NCBI GenBank assembly: GCA_903896745.1
Contig: CAITZA010000035.1
Location: 1-56,570 of the forward strand
Direction of reading: 5' to 3'
Source of the DNA: an uncultured Desulfomonile sp.
Lineage (GTDB): Bacteria > Desulfobacterota > Desulfomonilia > Desulfomonilales > Desulfomonilaceae
Length of the DNA: 56,570 nt
The notes beneath the pieces were generated by a model, which searched no databases, was not told where the DNA came from, and saw nothing but the letters and a program-made list of their open reading frames with translations. Position 1 is the stretch's first letter, and each line of letters starts with the position of its first letter. The translations under genes and the position numbers were made by a program. Below, piece by piece: positions 8,254 through 28,721 of the stretch.

Positions 8254-8333
8254 AAGTTATTCACCGGTAAAACTCAGGGGTTTTGTTTGGGTCACGGTTG
8301 TTTCAGCCTGACGATAATCCTGAAAGGGGGAAA

Positions 8334-9143
8334 ATGTTTCTCATGAAATTGTTACGACTTTTTGCAGGTTTGATGCTAGTCGTTTTTTTTATGGCCGGGT
8401 TGTCAGTTCACGCTGCTGACCCCAAAGCGGTAGAATCGTCCAAGGAAGCGGTTGATGGTTGTGTGGAACCGGCCGCTGGCCCGATTCCTGAAAATCAGGC
8501 CGCTACTGCAAAGGCCCAGACGAATGCCGTGTCAGCGAGTCCGGCAATCGCAAGGGTCGGTTCTCCGGCTCCGAATTTTGAAGCTCCATCTTATTTGAAC
8601 GGGAGCTTCAAGAATATCAAGCTGTCAGATTTCAAGGGCAAATGGGTCATTCTGTGCTTCTATCCCGGTGACTTCACGTTTGTCTGACCCACCGAAATTG
8701 CGTCAGTTGGCGCAAAATACGACGAAATTTCCAAATTAAATGCGCAAGTGCTCGCGATGAGCGTTGACAGCCGTTTCTCACACAAGATTTGGGATGAAAC
8801 CGAGCTTTCGAAGATGATTCCCAAGGGGCTTCCTTTTCCGCTTTTGAGCGACGCTGGAGGCAATATTGGCAAGGTTTATGGAGTATATGACTCCAAGGCA
8901 GGGGTTGATATCAGGGGACGCTTCATAATCGATCCTGATGGAGTAATCCAGGCCATTGAAATACTGGCGCCGCCAGTGGGCAGGAATGTTTCCGAATTGA
9001 TTAGACAGCTCCAGGCTTTTCAGCATGTAAGGACCACGGGCGAGGCAACCCCGGCTAGCTGGACACCAGGTCAGCAGACGTTGAAACCAAGGCCCGAACT
9101 TGTGGGAAATGTTTGGAAAGAGTGGAAAGTAAAGGACAAGTAG
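8334..9143 (+). CDS. Exported selenocysteine peroxiredoxin (AhpC/Prx1 type)
   Basis: A 269-residue peroxiredoxin whose catalytic codon is TGA (8685-8687), residue 118. Both sides are open in one frame and continue the family signature: GDFTFV, then TGA, then PTE. In ordinary peroxiredoxins this position is the peroxidatic Cys, so selenocysteine is the natural reading. A signal peptide at residues 1-30 (ending VHAAD) and an Ala/Pro-rich spacer precede the domain, placing it outside the cytoplasm. The C-terminal motif that normally holds the resolving Cys (CPAxWxPG) reads TPASWTPG, and no Cys occurs after residue 118, so a one-Sec mechanism or an external reductant is likely. ATG 8334 follows GAAAGGGGG. 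Homologous selenoperoxiredoxins are known from anaerobes. Confidence 0.92.
8698..8715 (+). promoter_or_regulatory. Bacterial SECIS-like hairpin
   Basis: Ten nt after the TGA codon, TTGCGTC pairs with GGCGCAA (seven pairs, one T-G wobble) around the loop AGTT. Position just 3' of the UGA and a G-U in the apical loop are the hallmarks of bacterial SECIS elements, which recruit SelB. The hairpin lies inside the coding sequence. Confidence 0.7.
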
Positions 9144-9246: not shown

Positions 9247-9270
9247 AGGCGCTATCGAAGCGCCTTTTTT
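9247..9270 (+). terminator. Rho-independent terminator of the peroxiredoxin gene
   Basis: AGGCGCT (9247-9253) and AGCGCCT (9259-9265) form a perfect 7-bp stem with loop ATCGA, followed by a T tract (9265-9270). It lies about 100 nt after the peroxiredoxin stop. The rest of the 331-nt gap (9144-9474) is AT-rich and shows no convincing gene; the open frame across 9215-9547 runs through this terminator. Confidence 0.85.
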
Positions 9271-18005: not shown

Positions 18006-18773
18006 TTATGACTTTATATCAACCTCTACGAAATTATGAGGGGCCCATGGTCCGTTATAATCAAAAGCGAAGTTGTCATCAAAGTGATTGGCCGCCTCAA
18101 AGACTACGGCCTCAAATTTATCGGTCTGTCCACGACCGATGAGGCAGGCCAAATTCATCACTTCTCGCTCATCCTTGCATTTGTTCCTTTTTACTTCGGA
18201 ACAGGCCTTGAGGAGTATTTTTTCCACGAAATCTGTCTGGTCCTCACGTTCTGAGTCCAGGATGTTGGCAAAGAGTCTGCCAAGTTCGATTTTTTCGTCC
18301 TGGGTAGCCTCGCGGCTTCTTCCGATGAGCTGATCACGAGCCGTTCGCAGTTCTTCGTTCCTATTCACAAGGAACTCAAAAATGTTTATGACGTCAAGAT
18401 TCACCTTGAGGCCCATCTCCACTTTTCCGGCCACTCTGGCAAGGCCGTCGATGATGGATTTCTGATGCTTGGCCAGAAACTTTCTCACAGCGGCTGAGCC
18501 CTCTGAAACGTTACCGAACGACATAGGCAAGAGATCGCCCGTTTCAAGGAGTTTCTTAAGGACAGCCTGATGGGCGGCAAAGTTTCGTCGTTCAGGCCTG
18601 ATACGTCCGCTTGGCGCGTCAGAGACTACAGCGGAGACTTCGCCCGATGAAATGGTGTAAACATTGCTGCCGTTGATTCCGATAGTTCCGAATGAACGAT
18701 CTTCAACTCCGGAAGTAATGGCATATATGTAACGCCCAGTCTGTCCCGGAATTTTTTTGGTTCTTTTTTCCAT
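18006..18773 (-). CDS. Gas vesicle protein GvpF/GvpL (copy in gvpA operon)
   Basis: A 255-residue GvpF/L protein. Seen: GRYIYAITSG at the start, a middle stretch with AAHQAVLKKLLE and LLPMSFGNVSEG (the usual P[MF]xFG motif), and the C-terminal FDYNGPWAPHNFV, which is the diagnostic GPWxPYxF-type ending. GvpF and GvpL bind GvpA and are thought to chaperone it or nucleate the shell. ATG 18773 is preferred, since an upstream extension to 18869 encodes a segment with no family likeness. It is the third GvpF/L copy of the locus and the only one within the gvpA operon. Confidence 0.88.
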   Translation of the reverse strand: MEKRTKKIPGQTGRYIYAITSGVEDRSFGTIGINGSNVYTISSGEVSAVVSDAPSGRIRPERRNFAAHQAVLKKLLETGDLLPMSFGNVSEGSAAVRKFLAKHQKSIIDGLARVAGKVEMGLKVNLDVINIFEFLVNRNEELRTARDQLIGRSREATQDEKIELGRLFANILDSEREDQTDFVEKILLKACSEVKRNKCKDEREVMNLACLIGRGQTDKFEAVVFEAANHFDDNFAFDYNGPWAPHNFVEVDIKS

Positions 18774-18942
18774 ATTGCACCAGAGTTCGAGATTGTTTTG
18801 GAAATAATCGATAAAATAGACGCTTCTATAAAAAGAAAGCCGATTGGAAAGTCGGCCTCCAGGTGTCATGAGACACAGCGTCGGGATAGTCCGATTCTCA
18901 CAACGGCATTTTAACTCATTATAAAATATTTACAAGCTCAAC

Positions 18943-19152
18943 TCACGTGGTTTTGTTTTCCTCAAAAATCCTCGGTGGTCTTGCGGCAGCTGGTTGCGGA
19001 GCCTGCGCGAATCTTACGGACTTAACCTTGCCTTCTACGGTCTTGAGTTCAAAGAGACCGCTACAGACGTAGCACCTGACAAGGCCGTCAAAATCGTCAT
19101 AAGCTTCATCCAGATTCAGGCTATGACCACAGGTTATGCAGTTGACTTTCAT
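18943..19152 (-). CDS. Small zinc-ribbon protein in the gas vesicle operon
   Basis: A 69-residue protein with two CxxC knuckles (Cys5/Cys8 and Cys27/Cys30) 18 residues apart, the layout of a zinc ribbon. The remainder is a short basic strand region and an Ala/Pro-rich tail. A GGAAAGGATGATGAG stretch before the ATG provides a ribosome site. It does not match a named Gvp protein I know. Its place between gvpN and gvpF/L, with short spacing on the upstream side, argues for a role in vesicle assembly. The gap to the next gvpF/L is about 170 nt. Confidence 0.7.
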   Translation of the reverse strand: MKVNCITCGHSLNLDEAYDDFDGLVRCYVCSGLFELKTVEGKVKSVRFAQAPQPAAARPPRIFEENKTT

Positions 19153-19156
19153 CTCA

Positions 19157-19357
19157 TCATCCTTTCCTGACACTCGCCCGACATTGACCGCCAAACCATA
19201 TCTTCCATTCGTTGTAGGCGAGCCTAGAGTTTTTTGCATTGCCAATTCGGCCCGTATCCAGCTTCGACTGGGGAGCGGCAGCCGATTTCTTTAATGTCTT
19301 GTAGCCCTTGATCTCTGAGCTTGATATAATTTGTCTGTATGTTTTCACTGGAATCAT
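19157..19357 (-). CDS. Small basic protein of unknown function in the gas vesicle operon
   Basis: A 66-residue Lys/Arg/Ser-rich protein without recognisable domain. Support for it being real: ATG 19357 is preceded by GAGGGGGTTAGG, it ends 4 nt before the zinc-ribbon gene starts, and no other reading of this 280-nt interval is better. The low complexity and lack of recognised homologues leave doubt. If real, it would be a small accessory gas vesicle protein. Confidence 0.5.
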   Translation of the reverse strand: MIPVKTYRQIISSSEIKGYKTLKKSAAAPQSKLDTGRIGNAKNSRLAYNEWKIWFGGQCRASVRKG

Positions 19358-19435
19358 TTACCTAACCCCCTCATCAAGAGTGTTGTCATTCTGGCAGTCA
19401 CCGGATCCCCATAACAGGAGTACTTCCAAGCGCAT

Positions 19436-19804
19436 CTAGTACCTAATTTTAAACCCGTCCTTATCCCTTATAGCCCCTTTACCGGAAATATTGAACTGAT
19501 CCTTGGCCACTGCGCATACAGGTCTGCCTGTCGTCCGTCCCGCAAGTTTTGGAGCATCCTTGTCGGATATTCCCAGTCCCTCGAGAATGGCTCTTTTTTC
19601 GTTTTCAATGTCGCAAATTCTGGCGTCAATGTTTCGGATTCTGGCCAGAGCGCTACTCTTCTCTTTCTCGCGCCGCGCTCTCTCCATCTCAAGACAGCTA
19701 ATCTTCATGAATGCGAGGTATGGGAGTCCTACGGCATCCACGCGCCCTGCATAAGTACGGATTTCTCGAACTCCTCGAATGTCAGCGGTCTTTTTTATTT
19801 CCAT
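19436..19804 (-). CDS. Coiled-coil gas vesicle accessory protein (possibly GvpV-like)
   Basis: A 122-residue protein with an N-terminal basic segment, a central helix rich in Glu/Arg/Lys (about residues 37-78: EMERARREKEKSSALARI, then RICDIENEKRAILEGLG) and a Gly/Lys-rich tail. The helix and the segment PYLAFMKISCLEME before it recall GvpV of cyanobacteria, but similarity is weak. ATG 19804 has AGGAG seven nt upstream. It lies 15 nt downstream of gvpN, so it is co-transcribed. Naming it GvpV is inference. Confidence 0.6.
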   Translation of the reverse strand: MEIKKTADIRGVREIRTYAGRVDAVGLPYLAFMKISCLEMERARREKEKSSALARIRNIDARICDIENEKRAILEGLGISDKDAPKLAGRTTGRPVCAVAKDQFNISGKGAIRDKDGFKIRY

Positions 19805-19819
19805 TGTCAACACTCCTGA

Positions 19820-20821
19820 TTAAAGGTCTGCAAGTTTTGGAGCGGTCTTCCTGACGCTTTTGTTTTGACGGCAAACTTTCTTGATTATTTCATCGACTTT
19901 CTGCTTCATCAATGACTCACCACCGCGTGTAACCTTTACTGTATCAGTGTTTAGCACGTCACGGCAAATCCACTGGAAGGTTTTGTCCGTCTCAGAGGCA
20001 GTAGCGCCGAGATGCTGCAACACGCGACTGATGGCTATGCAGGCCCTGATTGTCGGCCTATGATTGTTCACACCAACCTGTCGCAGTTCCCTTATAATAT
20101 CAACTATTATTTCAGCGTCCTTTCGGGGAACGCCGGATTTGGCCATGGTAATCTGAATTTCTGTTTCCCGGTCATAGTGATTTACATTTATCGTAATTAA
20201 CCTGTCCATTAGAGCGTCCTGGGTTTTGTGGACACCTGCATATTCCTCAGGATTAGACGTAAAAATTGCTCTAAAGTCAGGGTGGACTTCCATATAACCC
20301 TCACCTGTTCTTCTAAGGCTCGGGAGATTCAATATTTTCTCTTCCAGAATGCTCAAAAGCACGTTATTGGCTTCAGGTCTGGATCGGGTAAACTCGTCAT
20401 AAATTAAGGTGTATCCGTCTCTACATGCTGTTGTAAGTCTATTATCGACCCACAGGCTTCGCATTTCCTCTTCGGTTCTTACGACCGAATGGATGAAGTT
20501 ATCAACCAGTTTGGATTTTTTATATCCTGCGTCTCTACCAACCAAGTCTGAGCTTCCAAATTCATCGTCTCCATGGACCAGTATGACAGGTCGACTCAGA
20601 CGCGCCGCTATATGGAATGCTAGAGTCGTCTTTCCGGTGCCTGCTGGTCCGGCGAAATGAACTGAGTACCCAACAGCTAGATAGGCCATCGCCCTTTCGC
20701 TGAGTTCTTTAACGTAGAGCGTGTTAACAAATTGATCACTCGCCTCAGGAAGAACATTGTCCTGATCGGATTTAATTATTTCTGAATCTAGGGCCTCTAT
20801 CTGAGAATCGGGATTTATCAT
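19820..20821 (-). CDS. gvpN: Gas vesicle AAA+ ATPase GvpN
   Basis: A 333-residue MoxR-class AAA+ ATPase. Walker A GPAGTGKTT is at residues 58-66, followed by VILVHGDDEFGSSDLVG, which is typical of GvpN, Walker B YTLIYDEFTR, and the sensor region AIFTSNPEEYAG. GvpN is thought to remodel or recruit shell components during vesicle growth. A GAG-type ribosome site precedes the ATG. The gene lies 105 nt downstream of the six-motif zinc protein, with a GCCGGC hairpin in between, and 15 nt before the coiled-coil gene. Confidence 0.92.
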   Translation of the reverse strand: MINPDSQIEALDSEIIKSDQDNVLPEASDQFVNTLYVKELSERAMAYLAVGYSVHFAGPAGTGKTTLAFHIAARLSRPVILVHGDDEFGSSDLVGRDAGYKKSKLVDNFIHSVVRTEEEMRSLWVDNRLTTACRDGYTLIYDEFTRSRPEANNVLLSILEEKILNLPSLRRTGEGYMEVHPDFRAIFTSNPEEYAGVHKTQDALMDRLITINVNHYDRETEIQITMAKSGVPRKDAEIIVDIIRELRQVGVNNHRPTIRACIAISRVLQHLGATASETDKTFQWICRDVLNTDTVKVTRGGESLMKQKVDEIIKKVCRQNKSVRKTAPKLADL

Positions 20822-20896
20822 GACATCTCACTTTCTAAGCCGCACGTAACTTCTACAGGTTGATAAAAAGTTAACCTGCAACATAATTGGAGTCGG

Positions 20897-20920
20897 GCCG
20901 GCCTTTTTAAAGTAGCCGGC
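20897..20920 (-). promoter_or_regulatory. Hairpin between the zinc-finger gene and gvpN
   Basis: Two GCCGGC hexamers (20897-20902 and 20915-20920) form a perfect 6-bp GC stem with a 12-nt AT-rich loop. No T tract follows on the minus strand. It may set relative expression of the operon's two halves by attenuation or by RNA processing. Confidence 0.4.
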
Positions 20921-20926
20921 GCCAAC

Positions 20927-21298
20927 TCAAGCTAAAATAAAACCTTTGCCGTGGCATCTGATGCAGGCTAGTGCGGGAGCAGAGCCATCATCACCAGATC
21001 CTGCGCATACAGGGCATGATACTATAGGCGCCGAGGGTAACGGCACATGACCCTTGCCACCACAAGTCGTACAGGTGAGCGTCTTCACGGCTCCGGTGCC
21101 ATTACAGTGCGGACAGACTTTATAGGGCGCCTCAATGTTGACGACGCCCCTACCACCGCATATGCAGCACGTGGACAGCCATGACATGACCCCAAAGGGG
21201 TCAGTTCCAGAGCCACCACAAAATGCGCAAGTTATTTCAGTCATGTTTGGTTGATCGACGCCATGCTCAGCTATTAATTTTTCATTTTGCCGTTTCAT
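20927..21298 (-). CDS. Zinc protein with six CxxCxGxG motifs (DnaJ-type)
   Basis: A 123-residue protein made almost only of zinc motifs: CAFCGGSG, CCICGGRG, CPHCNGTG, CTTCGGKG, CPVCAGSG and CIRCHGKG. In DnaJ four such motifs form two zinc sites that bind unfolded protein; here six would form three. There is no J domain or peptide-binding domain. The first 25 residues are a polar lead. ATG 21298 is preferred to a TTG at 21316. Placed between the GvpC-like gene and gvpN, it is probably a holdase for shell proteins, but that is inference. Confidence 0.85.
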   Translation of the reverse strand: MKRQNEKLIAEHGVDQPNMTEITCAFCGGSGTDPFGVMSWLSTCCICGGRGVVNIEAPYKVCPHCNGTGAVKTLTCTTCGGKGHVPLPSAPIVSCPVCAGSGDDGSAPALACIRCHGKGFILA

Positions 21299-21316
21299 GG
21301 CTTTACTCGTTATCAA

Positions 21317-22105
21317 CTATTTCTTGTCTTTCTTTTTTGCTCCCATTCCTGAATCGACCGGAGCGGGGGCTGTTTTCTCTTGTTCCACCGGCTTCGTTTC
21401 TGCAAGCGCTTTTGCTCTGGCTTCCGCCAACAGCTTGGCTTTCATCTCGGCCTCAGCCTTGGCTTTTTGTTCAGCAAGCATCTTGGCTTTTCGTCCAGCT
21501 GGTGACAGTGTATTCCAGGCTTTTCTCGCTCCAGCCATATCATCGGCATTAACCCGCCGCATTGCGCTGACTTCTGCATCCAAAGCGGATACAAACTTCT
21601 TTCGGTCGGCTTTGGCGGCCTTGGCCTTCTTGGCGTGATCAGCCTTGAACCCATCCATCATAACTGCTGTTTCGTTAGCTTTTGCGGTTACGAATTTAAC
21701 GACGTCCTTTACGAATGCCGTGTTTTCCCTTTTGGTCTTAACCGCCATATCCACGCGAGCTTTGTGGTAGCCAGTCAACATATTGGATATGTTGTTCGCT
21801 ATATTTGAAACGAACTCCACATTTGCTTTCTTGGTTTTCTCGGCCATCTCGGCATGGGATTTGTCAAAAGACTTGAGCATGCCGGCGACTTCCGCATCAA
21901 GATTGGACACGAACTTAACTCTGTCGGCCTTCGTACGTTTTGCCATATCCATGTTGGCCTTACGAAAACCGTTCCGCATCGTGGCAACCTCAGACTTCAT
22001 CTCTTTGGTCTCACGATCCAACTGATTGGAAAAAATCTGGCGAGAATCCCTCAGGGCGACTATTTCGTCGCAGAGTCTGGTTATGTCATCGGTCAGATTG
22101 CCCAT
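21317..22105 (-). CDS. gvpC: GvpC-like repeat protein of the gas vesicle shell
   Basis: A 262-residue helical protein. Residues 43-75, 76-108, 109-148 and 149-181 are repeats of one unit: each begins Met-x-x-[GS]-[FY], has a [DEK]MA-x-[KR]TK-type centre and an FV[SK] at positions 23-25. Three units are exactly 33 residues; the third is 40, a 7-residue insertion. GvpC of cyanobacteria is built from 33-residue repeats and stiffens the vesicle from outside. After the repeats comes an Ala/Lys/Glu-rich helix (about 205-240) and a short Lys tail. Position between gvpA and gvpN is typical of gvpC. The sequence itself is not close to cyanobacterial GvpC. Confidence 0.75.
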   Translation of the reverse strand: MGNLTDDITRLCDEIVALRDSRQIFSNQLDRETKEMKSEVATMRNGFRKANMDMAKRTKADRVKFVSNLDAEVAGMLKSFDKSHAEMAEKTKKANVEFVSNIANNISNMLTGYHKARVDMAVKTKRENTAFVKDVVKFVTAKANETAVMMDGFKADHAKKAKAAKADRKKFVSALDAEVSAMRRVNADDMAGARKAWNTLSPAGRKAKMLAEQKAKAEAEMKAKLLAEARAKALAETKPVEQEKTAPAPVDSGMGAKKKDKK

Positions 22106-22202
22106 TAGTCCTCCTTCTCTAAAGCGCCCGACACATTGGACGATAGTCTACATCAAGTAGTCGCCGCTATACAATCGGGCTAGCCAGACGGACTCGGTGC
22201 TT

Positions 22203-22228
22203 CGGGGGGGTTATATTTACCGCCCCCG
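22203..22228 (-). promoter_or_regulatory. GC-rich stem-loop between gvpA and gvpC-like gene
   Basis: CGGGGG (22203-22208) pairs with CCCCCG (22223-22228), and two further G-C pairs form beyond a bulged G. The loop is AT-rich. There is no T tract on the minus strand. Such a structure after gvpA could protect or partly terminate the gvpA message so that the main shell protein is made in excess over the downstream genes. Confidence 0.45.
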
Positions 22229-22258
22229 GCGCAGTAGGAGTCCCAAGTGGCTTCAGCC

Positions 22259-22477
22259 TTATGCAGGAGCGGCGGCGCTGGCAGTAAGACCAATTGCTTC
22301 GGCATATTTTAGATAGGTCTCGACCGATGCGATTACAATTCTCGCCTCGACTGAGAGCAGCTCGATACCAACCAATGAAACCTTCGCCCAAGCGTCGATC
22401 ACGATACCTTTGTCCAAAATCCTGTCCACAACCTCTGCGAGGCTGGATGAATCTGTTGATTTCGCTATCTTGGCCAT
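22259..22477 (-). CDS. gvpA: Major gas vesicle structural protein GvpA
   Basis: A 72-residue protein nearly identical in pattern to Gvp[41 protein letters not shown] and [15 protein letters not shown]. GvpA polymerises into the ribbed wall of the gas-filled vesicle. The tail is short and Ala-rich. ATG 22477 has a GGAGG site 7 nt upstream; an ATG at 22489 lies inside that site. It is the first gene of the operon and is preceded by a sigma-54-type promoter about 72 nt upstream. Confidence 0.97.
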
Positions 22478-22548
22478 TTGACCCTCCATTTATTTTTTGT
22501 TTTTGCCTTTACAGGCTTTTTATGTTTGGCATGCCGACCTTAGTTATT

Positions 22549-22564
22549 GCCATTTCCATGCCAT
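22549..22564 (-). promoter_or_regulatory. Sigma-54 (-24/-12) promoter of the gvpA operon
   Basis: Read on the minus strand the 16-mer is TGGCATGGAAATGGCA. It matches the consensus TGGCACG-N4-TTGCA at all but two positions, with GG and GC exactly 10 nt apart. Transcription would start near 22537, leaving a leader of about 60 nt before gvpA. An NtrC-type activator gene lies at 29247-30680 in the same locus. The whole gap 22478-22982 has no gene. Confidence 0.75.
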
Positions 22565-22688
22565 CTTTTATTTTCAAGGTCAAAATGGGCTTTTTTTCCT
22601 GTATCAAATACCTCCCGCATTGTGTGACCAGCCGGCATACTTCTTTGATCCCGAATAGATAGACAGCGCGGATGCGACGGTCTGCCCT

Positions 22689-22719
22689 TCCAAATCCTTG
22701 GAGTTGGAGCTTGTTGGAG
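22689..22719 (-). promoter_or_regulatory. Candidate activator-binding repeats upstream of gvpA
   Basis: TCCAA-ATCC-TTGGA is a small dyad (22689-22702), and TTGGAG occurs three times (22698, 22704 and 22714). The group lies about 150-180 nt upstream of the predicted start of transcription, the distance at which sigma-54 activators bind. A further imperfect dyad, CAGTAAC-N11-GTAACTG, lies at 22783-22807. Binding is inferred. Confidence 0.35.
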
Positions 22720-22918
22720 AAGGCGTGTGAGATTTCCTGATGCTCTCCTCGCTACTTTATAATCCTGTCGTGGAATTTATTGCAGTAACTATCTGAGTTT
22801 GTAACTGATGTTCTCCAACCGTGTGAAACCTGAGACACAGTCCCTAGAAGGACAGGGGGCGCCAGTGGAACATTTTTGGATTCGTTGTGGCGTAGAAGGT
22901 ATTGGTTCGTGGAATGTG

Positions 22919-22942
22919 ATCTATGGAATGCTTTCCATAGAT
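22919..22942. repeat. Perfect 10-bp inverted repeat
   Basis: ATCTATGGAA and TTCCATAGAT flank TGCT. It lies 40 nt downstream of the response regulator stop (minus strand). It has no T tract, so it is a doubtful terminator; it could be a protein-binding site or a 3'-end hairpin of the regulatory operon. Confidence 0.45.
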
Positions 22943-22982
22943 GTAAGAGACTAAGCCCCATCGTGGTTGGCAAACACTTATT

Positions 22983-23366
22983 TCAGGGGTGCGGGCGCGC
23001 AGATTCGACGAGTTCCAGAAGTTCCATGTGGTCAAAAGGCTTGGCCACGAAACTGGACACCAAACCGGAGGCCACTGCCTTCTGCATGTTGTCATCATCC
23101 CTGTAGTAATAGCCTGAAATCATGATGATGGAAATGTCAGGATTAATTTCCTTTATCTTGACGGCGAGTTCGAGACCTTCCATATCGGGCAGTTTGGCAT
23201 CCAGCAAGGCTATGTCAAACCTCAGGGCATTCATGATTGACAGCGCTTCAAGCGCGCTGTCGGCCTTATGCACGCTGTGTCCATGTTTGAGTAGCACGTT
23301 CTCCAGGGCCCACAGCATGTCGGGTTCGTCATCGATAATTATTATGAGTCCGGGTTCAACTGTCAT
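22983..23366 (-). CDS. Single-domain response regulator
   Basis: A 127-residue receiver domain and nothing else. The acidic pair DDE lies in IIIIDDEPD, the phosphorylatable Asp in LLDAKLPD, and the Lys in FVAKPFD. Such CheY-like proteins pass phosphate or bind a target protein. It begins 14 nt after the stop of the PAS histidine kinase, so the two are a cognate pair. Its output may reach the NtrC-type regulator at 29247 through the same kinase, but this is inference. Confidence 0.9.
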   Translation of the reverse strand: MTVEPGLIIIIDDEPDMLWALENVLLKHGHSVHKADSALEALSIMNALRFDIALLDAKLPDMEGLELAVKIKEINPDISIIMISGYYYRDDDNMQKAVASGLVSSFVAKPFDHMELLELVESARPHP

Positions 23367-23380
23367 TGAAGATATCCTGA

Positions 23381-24895
23381 TCAGAAAGCGGGTAGACGAA
23401 CTGTGAATGTAGAGCCCTGTCCCTCGGCGCTAGATACTTCTATCTTGCCCAAGTGTTGTTTTACAACAATTGTGTGGCAGATAGATAGTCCCAGACCCGT
23501 CCCCTTGCCAACGGGAGGTAAAGTATAGAAAGGATCGAATATTTTTTCAAGATTCTCTTTGGCTATGCCCAGGCCAGTATCGATTATTTGCACAGTGATT
23601 TCCGAGTCTGTTTTATCAAGATGGACCGTGAGAAACCCTCCTTCGGGCATGGAATTGATCCCATTGAGAAACAGATTAAGAAGCGCCTGCTGGAGCAAAT
23701 TTGAATGGCCAAGCACCCAGGCCTTTTCAATCGATGATTCCAATGAAATCGTGACCTTCTGGATCTTGGCCTGATTAACAACCAGCTTGATGGTGTCCTG
23801 AATGACAGGCATAAGGTCCAGATGAGTCATGTCAGTGGTAGATGACGGCCTGGCAAAACGTAAGAGATCCTGAATGATCGTTGAAGCTTTTTCAATGCCT
23901 GAAAGGATTTTCTGGACACAAATCGTTTGGAAGTCCCTCGAAAGATCCTCTTCCATCAAGAATTGCGCGGCGGAATAACTCACTGCCAAAGGATTCCTTA
24001 TTTCATGGGCAATTCCTCCGGCCATTACCCCGAGGGCCGCGAGTTTTTGAGACTTGAGGAGTTGCATTTCCAGCTCTCTACGCTCCCGAAGGTCTCTCCC
24101 AATGGCAACAATTCCGATTGTTTCGCCCGTCTCATCCTGCATTCCAGAGAAAATCCATCCAATTGGAAGCCGCTGATTGGTCTTGGTCCTGATGTCCCAT
24201 TCCCCCGTTTCAGACTTTCCATCGATTCTAACATTTCTGAATACTTGAACTAATTCTTGCCTGTTTTCTTTAGGAAGCCAGTCAAAAACCTGCGTGCCGT
24301 AGACCTCATGCGATCTGAATCCGGTAATCTTTTCGGCTGCCGTATTCCACGTAAGGATCACGCCTTCAGCGTCGGTAGACATAACAATGTCTGCAGCGCT
24401 CTCAACCACCCCGGCTAATCGTCTCTGAGCCCTGAGAACTTCATCGCTCAAGCGTATCTGTTCGGTGACATCGTCCATGAGCAACATCACATGCTCAACC
24501 TGGTTGTTCCAGGAAAATGGCAGAATGCTGTAATAATAAACTCTTAAAGGAACCCCCGGAGCGCGGTAGGTCATACGTCCGCCTCGAATGGCCTGATTAT
24601 ACTTGAAGGTTTGCAAAACCTTTCCGGTAATGTCCATGTTTTCAATCAAGGGCTCCGGCAAGAGTTCCTGGAGTTTTCTCCCGATTGTCTCGTTGCGGGA
24701 TTTTCTATTTTTTAAAAGGAAGTTCTTGTTTGCAGCTACGATTCTTATCTCATCATCAATTAACAGCAACGATGAAGGTATGGCTTCGAGAAGCATCTCG
24801 AAAAGTTTTTCAAATCTGTCAGAACCTTCATGCGCCGGCAATTCAGACTTGAACTCTCCTACTGGTCGTGTTTTCAACAAATCTAGTGGAGACAT
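23381..24895 (-). CDS. Cytoplasmic PAS-PAS histidine kinase of the gas vesicle locus
   Basis: A 504-residue kinase with no membrane segment. Two PAS domains occur at about 30-145 and 155-270, the HisKA domain holds His297 in GIAHEIRNPL, and the ATPase domain has DTGLGIA and GTGLGLSI. PAS domains without a membrane part sense internal signals such as redox state, oxygen or ligands. The kinase resembles NtrB-type partners of sigma-54 activators. It is flanked by gvpF/L (57 nt upstream) and its response regulator (14 nt downstream), so it is embedded in the gas vesicle locus. Confidence 0.9.
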   Translation of the reverse strand: MSPLDLLKTRPVGEFKSELPAHEGSDRFEKLFEMLLEAIPSSLLLIDDEIRIVAANKNFLLKNRKSRNETIGRKLQELLPEPLIENMDITGKVLQTFKYNQAIRGGRMTYRAPGVPLRVYYYSILPFSWNNQVEHVMLLMDDVTEQIRLSDEVLRAQRRLAGVVESAADIVMSTDAEGVILTWNTAAEKITGFRSHEVYGTQVFDWLPKENRQELVQVFRNVRIDGKSETGEWDIRTKTNQRLPIGWIFSGMQDETGETIGIVAIGRDLRERRELEMQLLKSQKLAALGVMAGGIAHEIRNPLAVSYSAAQFLMEEDLSRDFQTICVQKILSGIEKASTIIQDLLRFARPSSTTDMTHLDLMPVIQDTIKLVVNQAKIQKVTISLESSIEKAWVLGHSNLLQQALLNLFLNGINSMPEGGFLTVHLDKTDSEITVQIIDTGLGIAKENLEKIFDPFYTLPPVGKGTGLGLSICHTIVVKQHLGKIEVSSAEGQGSTFTVRLPAF

Positions 24896-24951
24896 TGTGA
24901 CTTCTTTTTTTGCCTAAATCATAACGCGTGGCATCATAAAATTGGAAATTA

Positions 24952-25671
24952 TCATACAAAATTGTATGGAGCCCACGGACCACTTATGAGGACGCGCGCC
25001 CCCAAGGTGGGCCTGATCTCATCAAATATTTCCCTAAACCGCTCAACAGATGACTTGTGGATCAGAAAATGGATTGAAACCAGAATTTCGTTACCCGAGG
25101 AATTCTGGATAGCTTTTGGGGAGGATTCAACCTTGTGCTCGATATAAAGACCTTCCACAGCTTTTCTGGAAGCGTCGATAATCTCCTGACATCTTGAATC
25201 CAGACCGTTCTGGTATGTATAGAGAGTCCTTCGTTTTGCCAGGTACGACTTGCCAGGATTATCACTATCGACTTCGTTGTTTTCGTTTTCTTTCAAATCG
25301 ATTTGTTCCGTTTGGCGCTTATCGAGGATTAGCCTTATTCCCATTTCAATCTTATTGTCCAGCCTGAATAGGGTAGATTCATAATCCGTGCCACGTTGAT
25401 CGAGATGACGCATTACCTCGCTTTCACTGGCAAGAATAGTTTTGAAGCGAAAAGGGATTACGGGGCCACAACGGAAACACAGATCCACAACATTGTGATA
25501 GATTAATAGGTTTTGAATATCCAGGGATATTTCGGAAGGATCGAAATCTGAAATTACAGCGGCAATTTTTCCATGTTCTACAAATTTTATCTGCTGATCC
25601 TGGACACCTTTATTTTGCGGTAAATCTTTAACCGCCCCGGACCATAGGACACAGTATAACAGGCGTTTCAT
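24952..25671 (-). CDS. Gas vesicle protein GvpF/GvpL (second copy)
   Basis: A 239-residue GvpF/L protein. The N-terminal KRLLYCVLWSG strand, the segment VIPFRFKTILASE in the middle (the P-x-RFGT-type motif) and the C-terminal SGPWAPYNFV ending are diagnostic. A charged insertion with repeated Glu/Asn lies at about 125-150. The start overlaps the stop of the upstream gvpF/L (TAATG), so translation is coupled. It is the partner of the copy at 25671-26489 and separate from the copy in the gvpA operon. Confidence 0.87.
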   Translation of the reverse strand: MKRLLYCVLWSGAVKDLPQNKGVQDQQIKFVEHGKIAAVISDFDPSEISLDIQNLLIYHNVVDLCFRCGPVIPFRFKTILASESEVMRHLDQRGTDYESTLFRLDNKIEMGIRLILDKRQTEQIDLKENENNEVDSDNPGKSYLAKRRTLYTYQNGLDSRCQEIIDASRKAVEGLYIEHKVESSPKAIQNSSGNEILVSIHFLIHKSSVERFREIFDEIRPTLGARVLISGPWAPYNFV

Positions 25672-26489
25672 TACCAGTTTTCCATTTCGAGCGGAGGAGC
25701 AAAGCTATAGGGAGGCCAGGGGCCGGATATCGTTAATTCAAGACCATCACAGTCCGAATTGGAATTTGTTGCGAAAACAAGTTCCTGCAATTTTTGAAAA
25801 TCAGATTTATTTAATAACACCGCCCAGTTGGCGACAAGTTCTTTGTTATTTTCGTCAAAAGCGTTTTTGTGAGCTTTTCTCGCTTGCAACTGACTCGATA
25901 TTGAATCCAGGCTGGTCGCTACTTTTTGAATCTTTTCATTTACCCAGGAAGAAATATCCTTTTCAACTTCGGCCTGAATCTGTTTTTCCCGGAAGTACCT
26001 AACCCCCGGAGAGAGACTTGATAAATCGATATCGAGTATGTCAATCCTCTTCTGAAACAGTGTGGCCTTAAGTCTGTCCCGATCCAGATAGACCCTGATA
26101 GCCCACTCATCCTTGTCCCTGATCAATTCCAGGAACTCTATAATCGAGTCGTAGTTGGACTCAGCCAGGGAAATCAGTTTCTGCTCCGACGAAAACAGGG
26201 TTCCGAACCTGGCCGGCAAAACCGGGGAGAGAGCGCACATCTCCTGGACAACCTGGCCGTGTCGCAATGCCCTCGGGGTGACCCATTCGACATTGTTAAG
26301 CCTTTCCTCCGCGCCCGGCCCAGCAAAATCCTCCAGGGGAACCTTGCTCACCACCATTACCAATTCCCTAAATGGTATCCTGAAAAGTTTTTGTCCTTCA
26401 ACAAGACCAAAACCCGGTTCCCCATCCGGCGCCGGGCCACTTTTCGCAAAACAGAAAAAATAATAGGCTTCAGACAATTTTTCACCCAC
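25671..26489 (-). CDS. Gas vesicle protein GvpF/GvpL (first copy)
   Basis: A 272-residue GvpF/L protein: YYFFCFAKSG start, ELVMVVSKVPLEDF, the motif VLPARFGTLFSSEQ, and the C-terminal SGPWPPYSF ending. The start is GTG 26489, directly after an AGGG site. It is the first gene after a strong terminator at 26543, so a promoter probably lies in the 55 nt between them or transcription reads through. GvpF/L proteins bind GvpA in the cytoplasm before assembly. Confidence 0.87.
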   Translation of the reverse strand: MGEKLSEAYYFFCFAKSGPAPDGEPGFGLVEGQKLFRIPFRELVMVVSKVPLEDFAGPGAEERLNNVEWVTPRALRHGQVVQEMCALSPVLPARFGTLFSSEQKLISLAESNYDSIIEFLELIRDKDEWAIRVYLDRDRLKATLFQKRIDILDIDLSSLSPGVRYFREKQIQAEVEKDISSWVNEKIQKVATSLDSISSQLQARKAHKNAFDENNKELVANWAVLLNKSDFQKLQELVFATNSNSDCDGLELTISGPWPPYSFAPPLEMENW

Positions 26490-26594: not shown

Positions 26595-28721
26595 TCATTC
26601 GCTTACTTCATCCAGCGTTTTGAGAAGGTCATCTTTGGTCAATTTAACTTTTATTTTTGCATCAGGATTTTGTTTAAGGGATTCAACCGCTCTCCTGACA
26701 GCCTTGAGCGCGGCTTTCTGACATATTCCAGCTATGTCGGCGCCGCCAAACCCCTCTGTCTGGGAAGCCAACCATTCTGGATTGATACCCTTTTCTAGAG
26801 GTTTGTTGCGTAAATGAACCCCAAAAATCTCGATCCTGTCCTGTTCAGTAGGCATGGGTATCTCGAATATCTCATCGAATCGTCCGGCTCTAAGTATAGC
26901 GGGATCTAATATATCCAAACGGTTGGTAGCTCCTAAAACCAGCACACCTTTGAGTTCTTCTATGCCATCCATTTCCGCCAGGAACTGACTTAGCACCCTT
27001 TCCGCAACATGAGAATCACCTGATGATCCGCCTCGAGCAGGAACGAGCGCATCAATTTCATCAAAAAACATTATACACGGGGAGGCCTGACGAGCTTTAC
27101 GAAAAACATCCCGCACACCTTGCTCGGATTCTCCCACATATTTCGACAACAGGGATGGGCCCTTGACCGATATGAAGTTTACCTTGCTCTCGTTGGCTAT
27201 TGCTTTTGCCAGCAATGTTTTGCCACAACCCGGAGGACCTGCCAGCATTATGCCTTTAGGAGGTTTGGCGCCGGCTTCTGTGAAAACTTCCGGAAACTTT
27301 AGAGGCCACTCAACCGACTCGACCAACCTGGCTTTTAGCTCGCTATGCCCCCCCACATCTTCCCACTTCACGTCCGGAACTTCTACAAACACTTCCCTGA
27401 TCGCCGATGGCTCGACTTCCTTGAGGGCCGACATGAAATCGTCCATCCGGACTTCAAGTTTTGCCAGTTGCTCATAGGGTATTCCCGCCATTGCAAAATC
27501 GATGTTGGGTAATATCCTTCTAAGGCAAATCATGGCCGCTTCCCGGCACAGAGCTTCCAGATCGGCGCCTACAAAGCCATGTGTGATTTCGGCCAAATGC
27601 GGCATTTTGACATCTGACGCCAAGGGCATTCCCCGACTATGTATCTCGAGGATTTCGAGGCGGCCATTTCTATCGGGAATAGGTATGGCAATTTCACGGT
27701 CAAATCTGCCGGGCCTCCTCAGGGCTGGGTCAAGCGCGTTGGGGATGTTCGTGGCGGCTATAACGATCAGGTTTTGACGCTTGTTCAGCCCATCCATCAA
27801 TGCAAGAAGCTGCGCTACAACCCTTTTCTCAACGTCCCCAACCACTTTTTCCCTTTGCGGAGCAATGGCGTCAATCTCATCGAGGAAAACTATGCTAGGA
27901 CCTTTGGCGGCGGCTTCGGCAAAAATTTTTCTCAGGTGGGCTTCACTTTCACCATAAAATTTATGAACTACTTCCGGCCCACTAACCGAATAGAAATTGG
28001 CTTCAGTCTCGTTTGCAATTGATCTTGCGATGAGAGTTTTTCCGCAACCTGGGGGGCCATGTAACAACACTCCCTTGGGCGCATCGATCCCCAGTTTTTC
28101 GAAAACCTCAGGGTATCTCAAAGGAAGCTCTATCATCTCCCTGATTCTGTTTACCTGGGGCCTCAGGCCGCCAATATCCTCGTAGGACATGGCGCCGGGT
28201 GTTGTGGAACGATCTGAGGTCTTTCCAATGACTAGTTGGGTGGTAGGGTTTATAAGAACCGGTTCACCGGGTGAAACACTCTCTACCAGGAAATCTGCCG
28301 ATCTGCTACCAAAGAGAGTGGCTCTGACAGAATCACCGACCACAACGGGCAGTCCATCAAGAAGGCTACCGATATATTCCAGGTCTCTCTCGGAGGTCGT
28401 GACGTTGATTGGGGAAAGAACCACCTTGTCAGCCGGTTTGCAGACTATTTTGGTTACCGTAACGTTTTCGTCAATTCCCGCTTTTGCGTTTTGCCTGGAA
28501 ATCCCGTCCAACTGAATTCTGGACTGACCCCTCATTTCCTTGTAGGCGGGCATAGCCTTGCATACTGTTTTGCGTTTACCGGAAATTTCTACAATATCGC
28601 CAACATTAGCGTTGAGCCTTTCAAGATCCTCCGGACCCATTCTTGCAAAAGCTCGCCCTATATCCTTACCTAAGGCCTCAGAAACTTTAAGTTTTATCTC
28701 AAGCTTCTCTGTTTTTGCCAT
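26595..28721 (-). CDS. Cdc48/VAT-like double AAA+ ATPase
   Basis: A 708-residue protein with a Cdc48 N domain (1-165) and two AAA+ modules. Walker A GPPGCGKT is at 222-230 and 494-502, Walker B FLDEID at 279-284 and FFDEID at 552-557, each followed by RPGRFD or RAGRFD arginine-finger motifs. Archaeal VAT and eukaryotic Cdc48/p97 have this layout and unfold or extract proteins. Bacterial members are uncommon. It lies between the Hsp20-like gene (14 nt upstream) and a terminator, all within the gas vesicle locus, so it may remodel vesicle proteins. Lateral transfer from an archaeon is possible. Confidence 0.93.
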   Translation of the reverse strand: MAKTEKLEIKLKVSEALGKDIGRAFARMGPEDLERLNANVGDIVEISGKRKTVCKAMPAYKEMRGQSRIQLDGISRQNAKAGIDENVTVTKIVCKPADKVVLSPINVTTSERDLEYIGSLLDGLPVVVGDSVRATLFGSRSADFLVESVSPGEPVLINPTTQLVIGKTSDRSTTPGAMSYEDIGGLRPQVNRIREMIELPLRYPEVFEKLGIDAPKGVLLHGPPGCGKTLIARSIANETEANFYSVSGPEVVHKFYGESEAHLRKIFAEAAAKGPSIVFLDEIDAIAPQREKVVGDVEKRVVAQLLALMDGLNKRQNLIVIAATNIPNALDPALRRPGRFDREIAIPIPDRNGRLEILEIHSRGMPLASDVKMPHLAEITHGFVGADLEALCREAAMICLRRILPNIDFAMAGIPYEQLAKLEVRMDDFMSALKEVEPSAIREVFVEVPDVKWEDVGGHSELKARLVESVEWPLKFPEVFTEAGAKPPKGIMLAGPPGCGKTLLAKAIANESKVNFISVKGPSLLSKYVGESEQGVRDVFRKARQASPCIMFFDEIDALVPARGGSSGDSHVAERVLSQFLAEMDGIEELKGVLVLGATNRLDILDPAILRAGRFDEIFEIPMPTEQDRIEIFGVHLRNKPLEKGINPEWLASQTEGFGGADIAGICQKAALKAVRRAVESLKQNPDAKIKVKLTKDDLLKTLDEVSE

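Follow-up and report, generated by a model that had tools for sequence, protein, structure and literature searches.

A predicted exported PrxU selenoperoxiredoxin in an uncultured Desulfomonile and its relatives

Results

The prxU Locus

The window, by which we mean the whole 56,570-nucleotide stretch of DNA analysed here, contains a reading frame of 269 codons whose sole interruption is a TGA at codon 118. Read with selenocysteine (Sec) at this codon, the frame encodes an AhpC/Prx1-type peroxiredoxin. The features of the locus are as follows.

8323..8330, + strand: Shine-Dalgarno-like AAAGGGGG ahead of the ATG at 8334 (5-nt exact match)
8334..9143, + strand: prxU, predicted exported selenoperoxiredoxin, 269 aa, Sec118 (translated with TGA as U)
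8334..8414, + strand: predicted signal peptide, residues 1-27, likely cleaved between VHA and ADP, no twin-arginine
8460..8462, + strand: Cys43, conserved N-terminal Cys, candidate resolving residue
8655..8657, + strand: Cys108, ten residues before Sec, co-occurring with the N-terminal Cys
8685..8687, + strand: TGA codon for Sec118, the peroxidatic residue
8698..8715, + strand: bacterial SECIS hairpin, 7 pairs, loop AGUU at 8705-8708
9048..9050, + strand: Thr239, where the C-terminal resolving Cys usually sits
9247..9265, + strand: terminator-like hairpin followed by a T run, weak alone (2 found vs 1.4 expected)

The start context reads AAAGGGGG-AAA-ATG; an alternative start lies at ATG 8343, and the signal peptide is kept from either. 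The product scores 372 bits against the NCBI PrxU model NF040737, above the cut-off of 270, and 131 bits against Pfam AhpC-TSA. Its AlphaFold model (mean pLDDT 85) has the typical 2-Cys peroxiredoxin fold, matching human Prx2 with a Foldseek E value of 4.5e-21. Selenoperoxiredoxins were already known, as the earlier note had stated: Sec-containing peroxiredoxins are described as an established family in PMC13188914, PMC9312934 and PMC1794560.

The window's prxU is probably monocistronic. When the first 30 kb of the window were compared with 7-15 kb around seven relatives, prxU was the sole match, leaving no conserved neighbourhood, and no second PrxU was found in the window's genome (G000, 94.7% complete). 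Elsewhere in the window, 18006-26489 on the minus strand holds three gas-vesicle genes (GvpL/GvpF) and, lying among them, an AAA protein; a CDC48-like AAA protein adjoins at 26595-28721. The host is a relative of sulfate reducers.

UGA118 Is a Selenocysteine Codon

We assembled 181 distinct PrxU genes readable from related loci and whole genomes. The peroxidatic codon is TGA in 180 of them and Cys in one, and in the window the surrounding residues (GDFTFV-U-PTE) follow the peroxidatic-site pattern TxxU as TFVU. The single Cys-for-Sec gene (L196, G313:C1:2345200-2347000) lies in a genome that has another PrxU region, L193. A further locus, L139 (G007:C87), retains only the 3' half of a PrxU gene, from residue 164, its 5' half missing, and is broken or misassembled.

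Ten nucleotides past the TGA begins the hairpin TTGCGTC-AGTT-GGCGCAA, with seven pairs including one U-G; its loop lies at a distance from the UGA that is within the known range of bacterial SECIS elements. Across 117 distinct homologues, a mean of 6.6 of the 7 pairs can form in this register, compared with 2.6-5.3 when the partners are slid by 1-3 columns. The stem pairs vary in a compensatory manner between U-A, G-C, C-G and A-U, while the loop is constant as AGUU or GGUC. Paired cells numbered 772, against 556 +/- 11 in synonymous recodings that preserve the protein (z = 19). Both the placement of the TGA at the peroxidatic position of a frame open on either side and the hairpin 10 nt beyond it had been claimed in the earlier note, and both are upheld.

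The genome also encodes a tRNA-Sec with anticodon UCA, SelB (394 bits), SelA (581 bits) and SelD (351 bits), the last of which itself contains an internal TGA. With selA, selB, selC and selD all present, a genome lacking the selenocysteine machinery, which had been named as a way for the proposal to fail, is ruled out. The other such way was a sequencing error turning TGC or TGT into TGA, and this is excluded because the TGA is common to 180 of 181 homologues and is accompanied by a covarying SECIS hairpin. Translation with table 11 does yield two separate ORFs, as a true stop in a pseudogene or an error in a Cys codon would; against the conserved TGA and hairpin and the complete Sec machinery, we give this explanation a negligible probability. 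Family, Sec codon, SECIS and machinery are accordingly established on computational grounds.

The Resolving Cysteine Is Replaced

Alignment with human Prx2 places ATP, including Thr239, where Prx2 has VCP. The prxU product therefore has no counterpart of the C-terminal resolving Cys found in typical 2-Cys enzymes; most homologues likewise have Thr at this position, and the replacement is equally a computational observation. A Cys in the N-terminal region, corresponding to Cys43 in a nearly invariant column, and the Cys ten residues before Sec occur together in 175/181 proteins; four have neither, with Tyr at the -10 position, and two have the Cys108 equivalent alone. In the AlphaFold model, residues 41-50 around Cys43 have a mean pLDDT of 84, whereas the flanking blocks have 51 and 65. 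With no Cys at the customary C-terminal site, Cys43 together with Cys108 would most likely take over the resolving step. The pair is not an adaptation to export, because cytosolic PrxU proteins carry the same two cysteines. In some PrxU-like Sec proteins (L140-L143 and L127), the N-terminal Cys is missing and Tyr replaces the Cys at Sec-10; these are naturally occurring versions that have neither of the candidate resolving cysteines.

A Predicted Signal Peptide Seen Only in Desulfomonilaceae

Judged by rule and hydropathy, the N-terminus of the prxU product has the positive n-region, hydrophobic h-region and small -3/-1 residues of a secretory signal, with a mean hydropathy of 2.8 over 12 residues. 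The earlier note had called a signal peptide on such a protein unusual, and the wider set agrees: a signal peptide behind a ribosome site occurs in only 4/181 PrxU genes, all from Desulfomonilaceae. The window's three counterparts each have a good ribosome site, and their predicted cleavage junctions are TASLA/ADPP (L106, in genome G017), MPCLA/ADPP (L134, in G011) and LTGFA/ATSEE (L103, in G005). L103 (G005:C1:804343-805047) belongs to Desulfomonile tiedjei DSM 6799, a cultured organism: in the 26,923-base second contig of G005, the opening 6,000 bases match the D. tiedjei plasmid NC_018026.1 at 100%. Besides the exported copy, a cytosolic PrxU paralogue is present in D. tiedjei (L135) and in G011 (L102). 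Another PrxU of the same family, L108, has an N-terminus matching that of Desulfomonilaceae bacterium Ess09-10 (L022), and the two are identical in the tree.

We strongly infer that the window's PrxU is exported. The hydrophobic segment is long and strong enough that it might instead serve as an uncleaved signal anchor, keeping the enzyme attached to the inner membrane on its periplasmic side, but the small -3/-1 residues and the A/ADP or A/AT junction in all four proteins fit signal peptidase I, and we consider an anchor unlikely.

As for the route, the earlier note had left a choice between export in unfolded form and a folded-protein pathway. To our knowledge, not many bacterial selenoproteins have been found beyond the cytoplasm, and those studied in most detail travel folded through the Tat system, formate dehydrogenase-N being exported in this way after folding and Sec insertion. 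Such precedent would favour Tat export of PrxU as well; however, residues 1-30 of the prxU product contain no RR, none of the four signal peptides has a twin-arginine motif, and in all four the hydrophobic region is stronger than in a typical Tat signal, which makes this route very improbable. Since the twin-arginine motif is absent, unfolded export via the general secretory route appears likeliest, and only that half of the earlier proposal is retained.

Exported Genes Lack the Internal Start

Most PrxU genes have a second in-frame ATG at the start of the peroxiredoxin core, 42-52 codons ahead of the Sec codon. Among the 174 Sec-type genes having the N-terminal Cys, 165 show a Shine-Dalgarno match of at least 5 nt at this internal start, and matches of at least 6 nt are found in 79% of genes vs 28% in synonymous recodings. 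Most PrxU loci (L017-L240), and that of Peptoclostridium acidaminophilum (L242:493-1215), thus possibly give a long and a short selenoprotein per gene. A usable internal start is missing from all four exported genes, which come from one family and are not independent: the window has no ATG at the core start, and at nearby ATGs in the three others the Shine-Dalgarno matches are 0, 0 and 3 nt. Such a loss of the internal ribosome site would fit an enzyme that is never to be made without its signal. The earlier note had remarked neither on this loss nor on the replaced C-terminal resolving Cys or the conserved Cys near the N-terminus.

These observations also bear on whether the window encodes an ordinary cytosolic PrxU, its apparent signal peptide being a chance hydrophobic reading of the 5' leader and its true start lying further in. 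That 177/181 PrxU proteins have no signal peptide speaks for such a reading, but the window offers no ATG at the core start, the later ATG at codon 20 has no ribosome site ahead of it, and three genes of the same family combine a signal peptide and a strong ribosome site with loss of the internal one. We therefore regard a cytosolic window protein as quite unlikely and retain export as the preferred interpretation.

Origin of the Exported Forms

Trees built from the core place the window's protein with cytosolic ones from the same family (support 97/91 in one tree and 93/88 in another), with which it shares a WKVKD-type C-terminus. L106 and L134 form a separate pair, and the best trees part the window from L103, L106 and L134. 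The separation of the window from L106 and L134 points to two or more origins of export, or to movement of the signal peptide between paralogues, although a single clade of exported forms was not rejected by the AU test (p = 0.125).

Discussion

Taken as a whole, we consider it highly probable that the window encodes a PrxU whose UGA is decoded as Sec, which is exported unfolded, and which acts as a periplasmic peroxidase with Cys43 and Cys108 as candidate resolving residues. UGA118 would be read by SelB and tRNA-Sec using the bSECIS hairpin at 8698-8715, and the protein would then pass the inner membrane in unfolded form via the general secretory pathway, with cleavage close to residue 27. 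Once in the periplasm, Sec118 would reduce H2O2 or organic hydroperoxides and be converted to a selenenic acid, which Cys43 of the N-terminal tail, together with Cys108, would most likely resolve. The electron donor would probably be a periplasmic thioredoxin supplied through CcdA; the genome encodes both proteins. A candidate source is found on contig C464 (L246, G000:C464:1954-3134), where an exported thioredoxin with a WCIPC motif immediately precedes a CcdA-type DsbD_TM protein, the unit itself having no link to prxU. The thioredoxin gene is preceded by an ORF of rhodanese-like appearance, and the unit is possibly a periplasmic reducing unit.

More broadly, it is conceivable, though in our view somewhat doubtful, that PrxU genes normally make two products, a long one that bears the resolving Cys, relocated to its N-terminal part, and a short one lacking this Cys, and that Desulfomonilaceae at least twice made from them an exported single-start enzyme, with a signal peptide gained, the internal ribosome site lost and export unfolded through the general secretory route. 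Given nested starts and a moved Cys, studies of the short PrxU alone may miss part of the system.

Export of PrxU probably moved a selenium-based peroxide defence outside the inner membrane. Unfolded export of a selenoperoxiredoxin raises the question of how a reactive selenol can remain reduced and avoid wrong pairing, both while it crosses the membrane and once it is in the periplasm, and the further question of whether strict anaerobes protect the periplasm from peroxide with selenium. Within the partial literature covered, the terms 'periplasmic selenoprotein' and 'exported selenoprotein' were not applied to any bacterial protein and no paper combined Desulfomonile with selenoprotein; word searches of PMC13188914, PMC9312934 and PMC1794560, within this incomplete literature, returned no mention of an exported PrxU form.

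Among the closest known counterparts is the PrxU of Peptoclostridium (Eubacterium) acidaminophilum (Sohling et al., 2001, as cited in PMC13188914). It belongs to the same family as the window's PrxU, with 59.5% identity, Sec at the same place and the same CAGTTGC loop region after the UGA, and it shares the Cys at Sec-10, the N-terminal GC motif and a resolving site without Cys. It has no signal peptide, however, and unlike the window's gene it carries an internal ATG preceded by AAAAAGGAGGAG; starting there yields 203 residues with Sec47, compared with 240 for the long form. The published enzyme is reportedly the 203-residue form. Human Prx4, a secreted/ER typical 2-Cys enzyme, is likewise a peroxiredoxin sent across a membrane and bears an extra N-terminal Cys; it has the same fold as the window's PrxU (TM-score about 0.89 on target) but has Cys for Sec and retains the C-terminal resolving Cys. 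The selenoprotein families in PMC1794560 include Sec-containing DsbA/DsbG-like and thiol:disulfide interchange proteins, which are extracytoplasmic by presumed function, yet these are thiol-disulfide oxidoreductases and not peroxidases. The D. tiedjei protein resembles that of the window in its signal peptide, Sec, N-terminal Cys and lack of an internal ribosome site, and differs in having a core that is not grouped with the window's in the best trees and a cytosolic paralogue alongside it.
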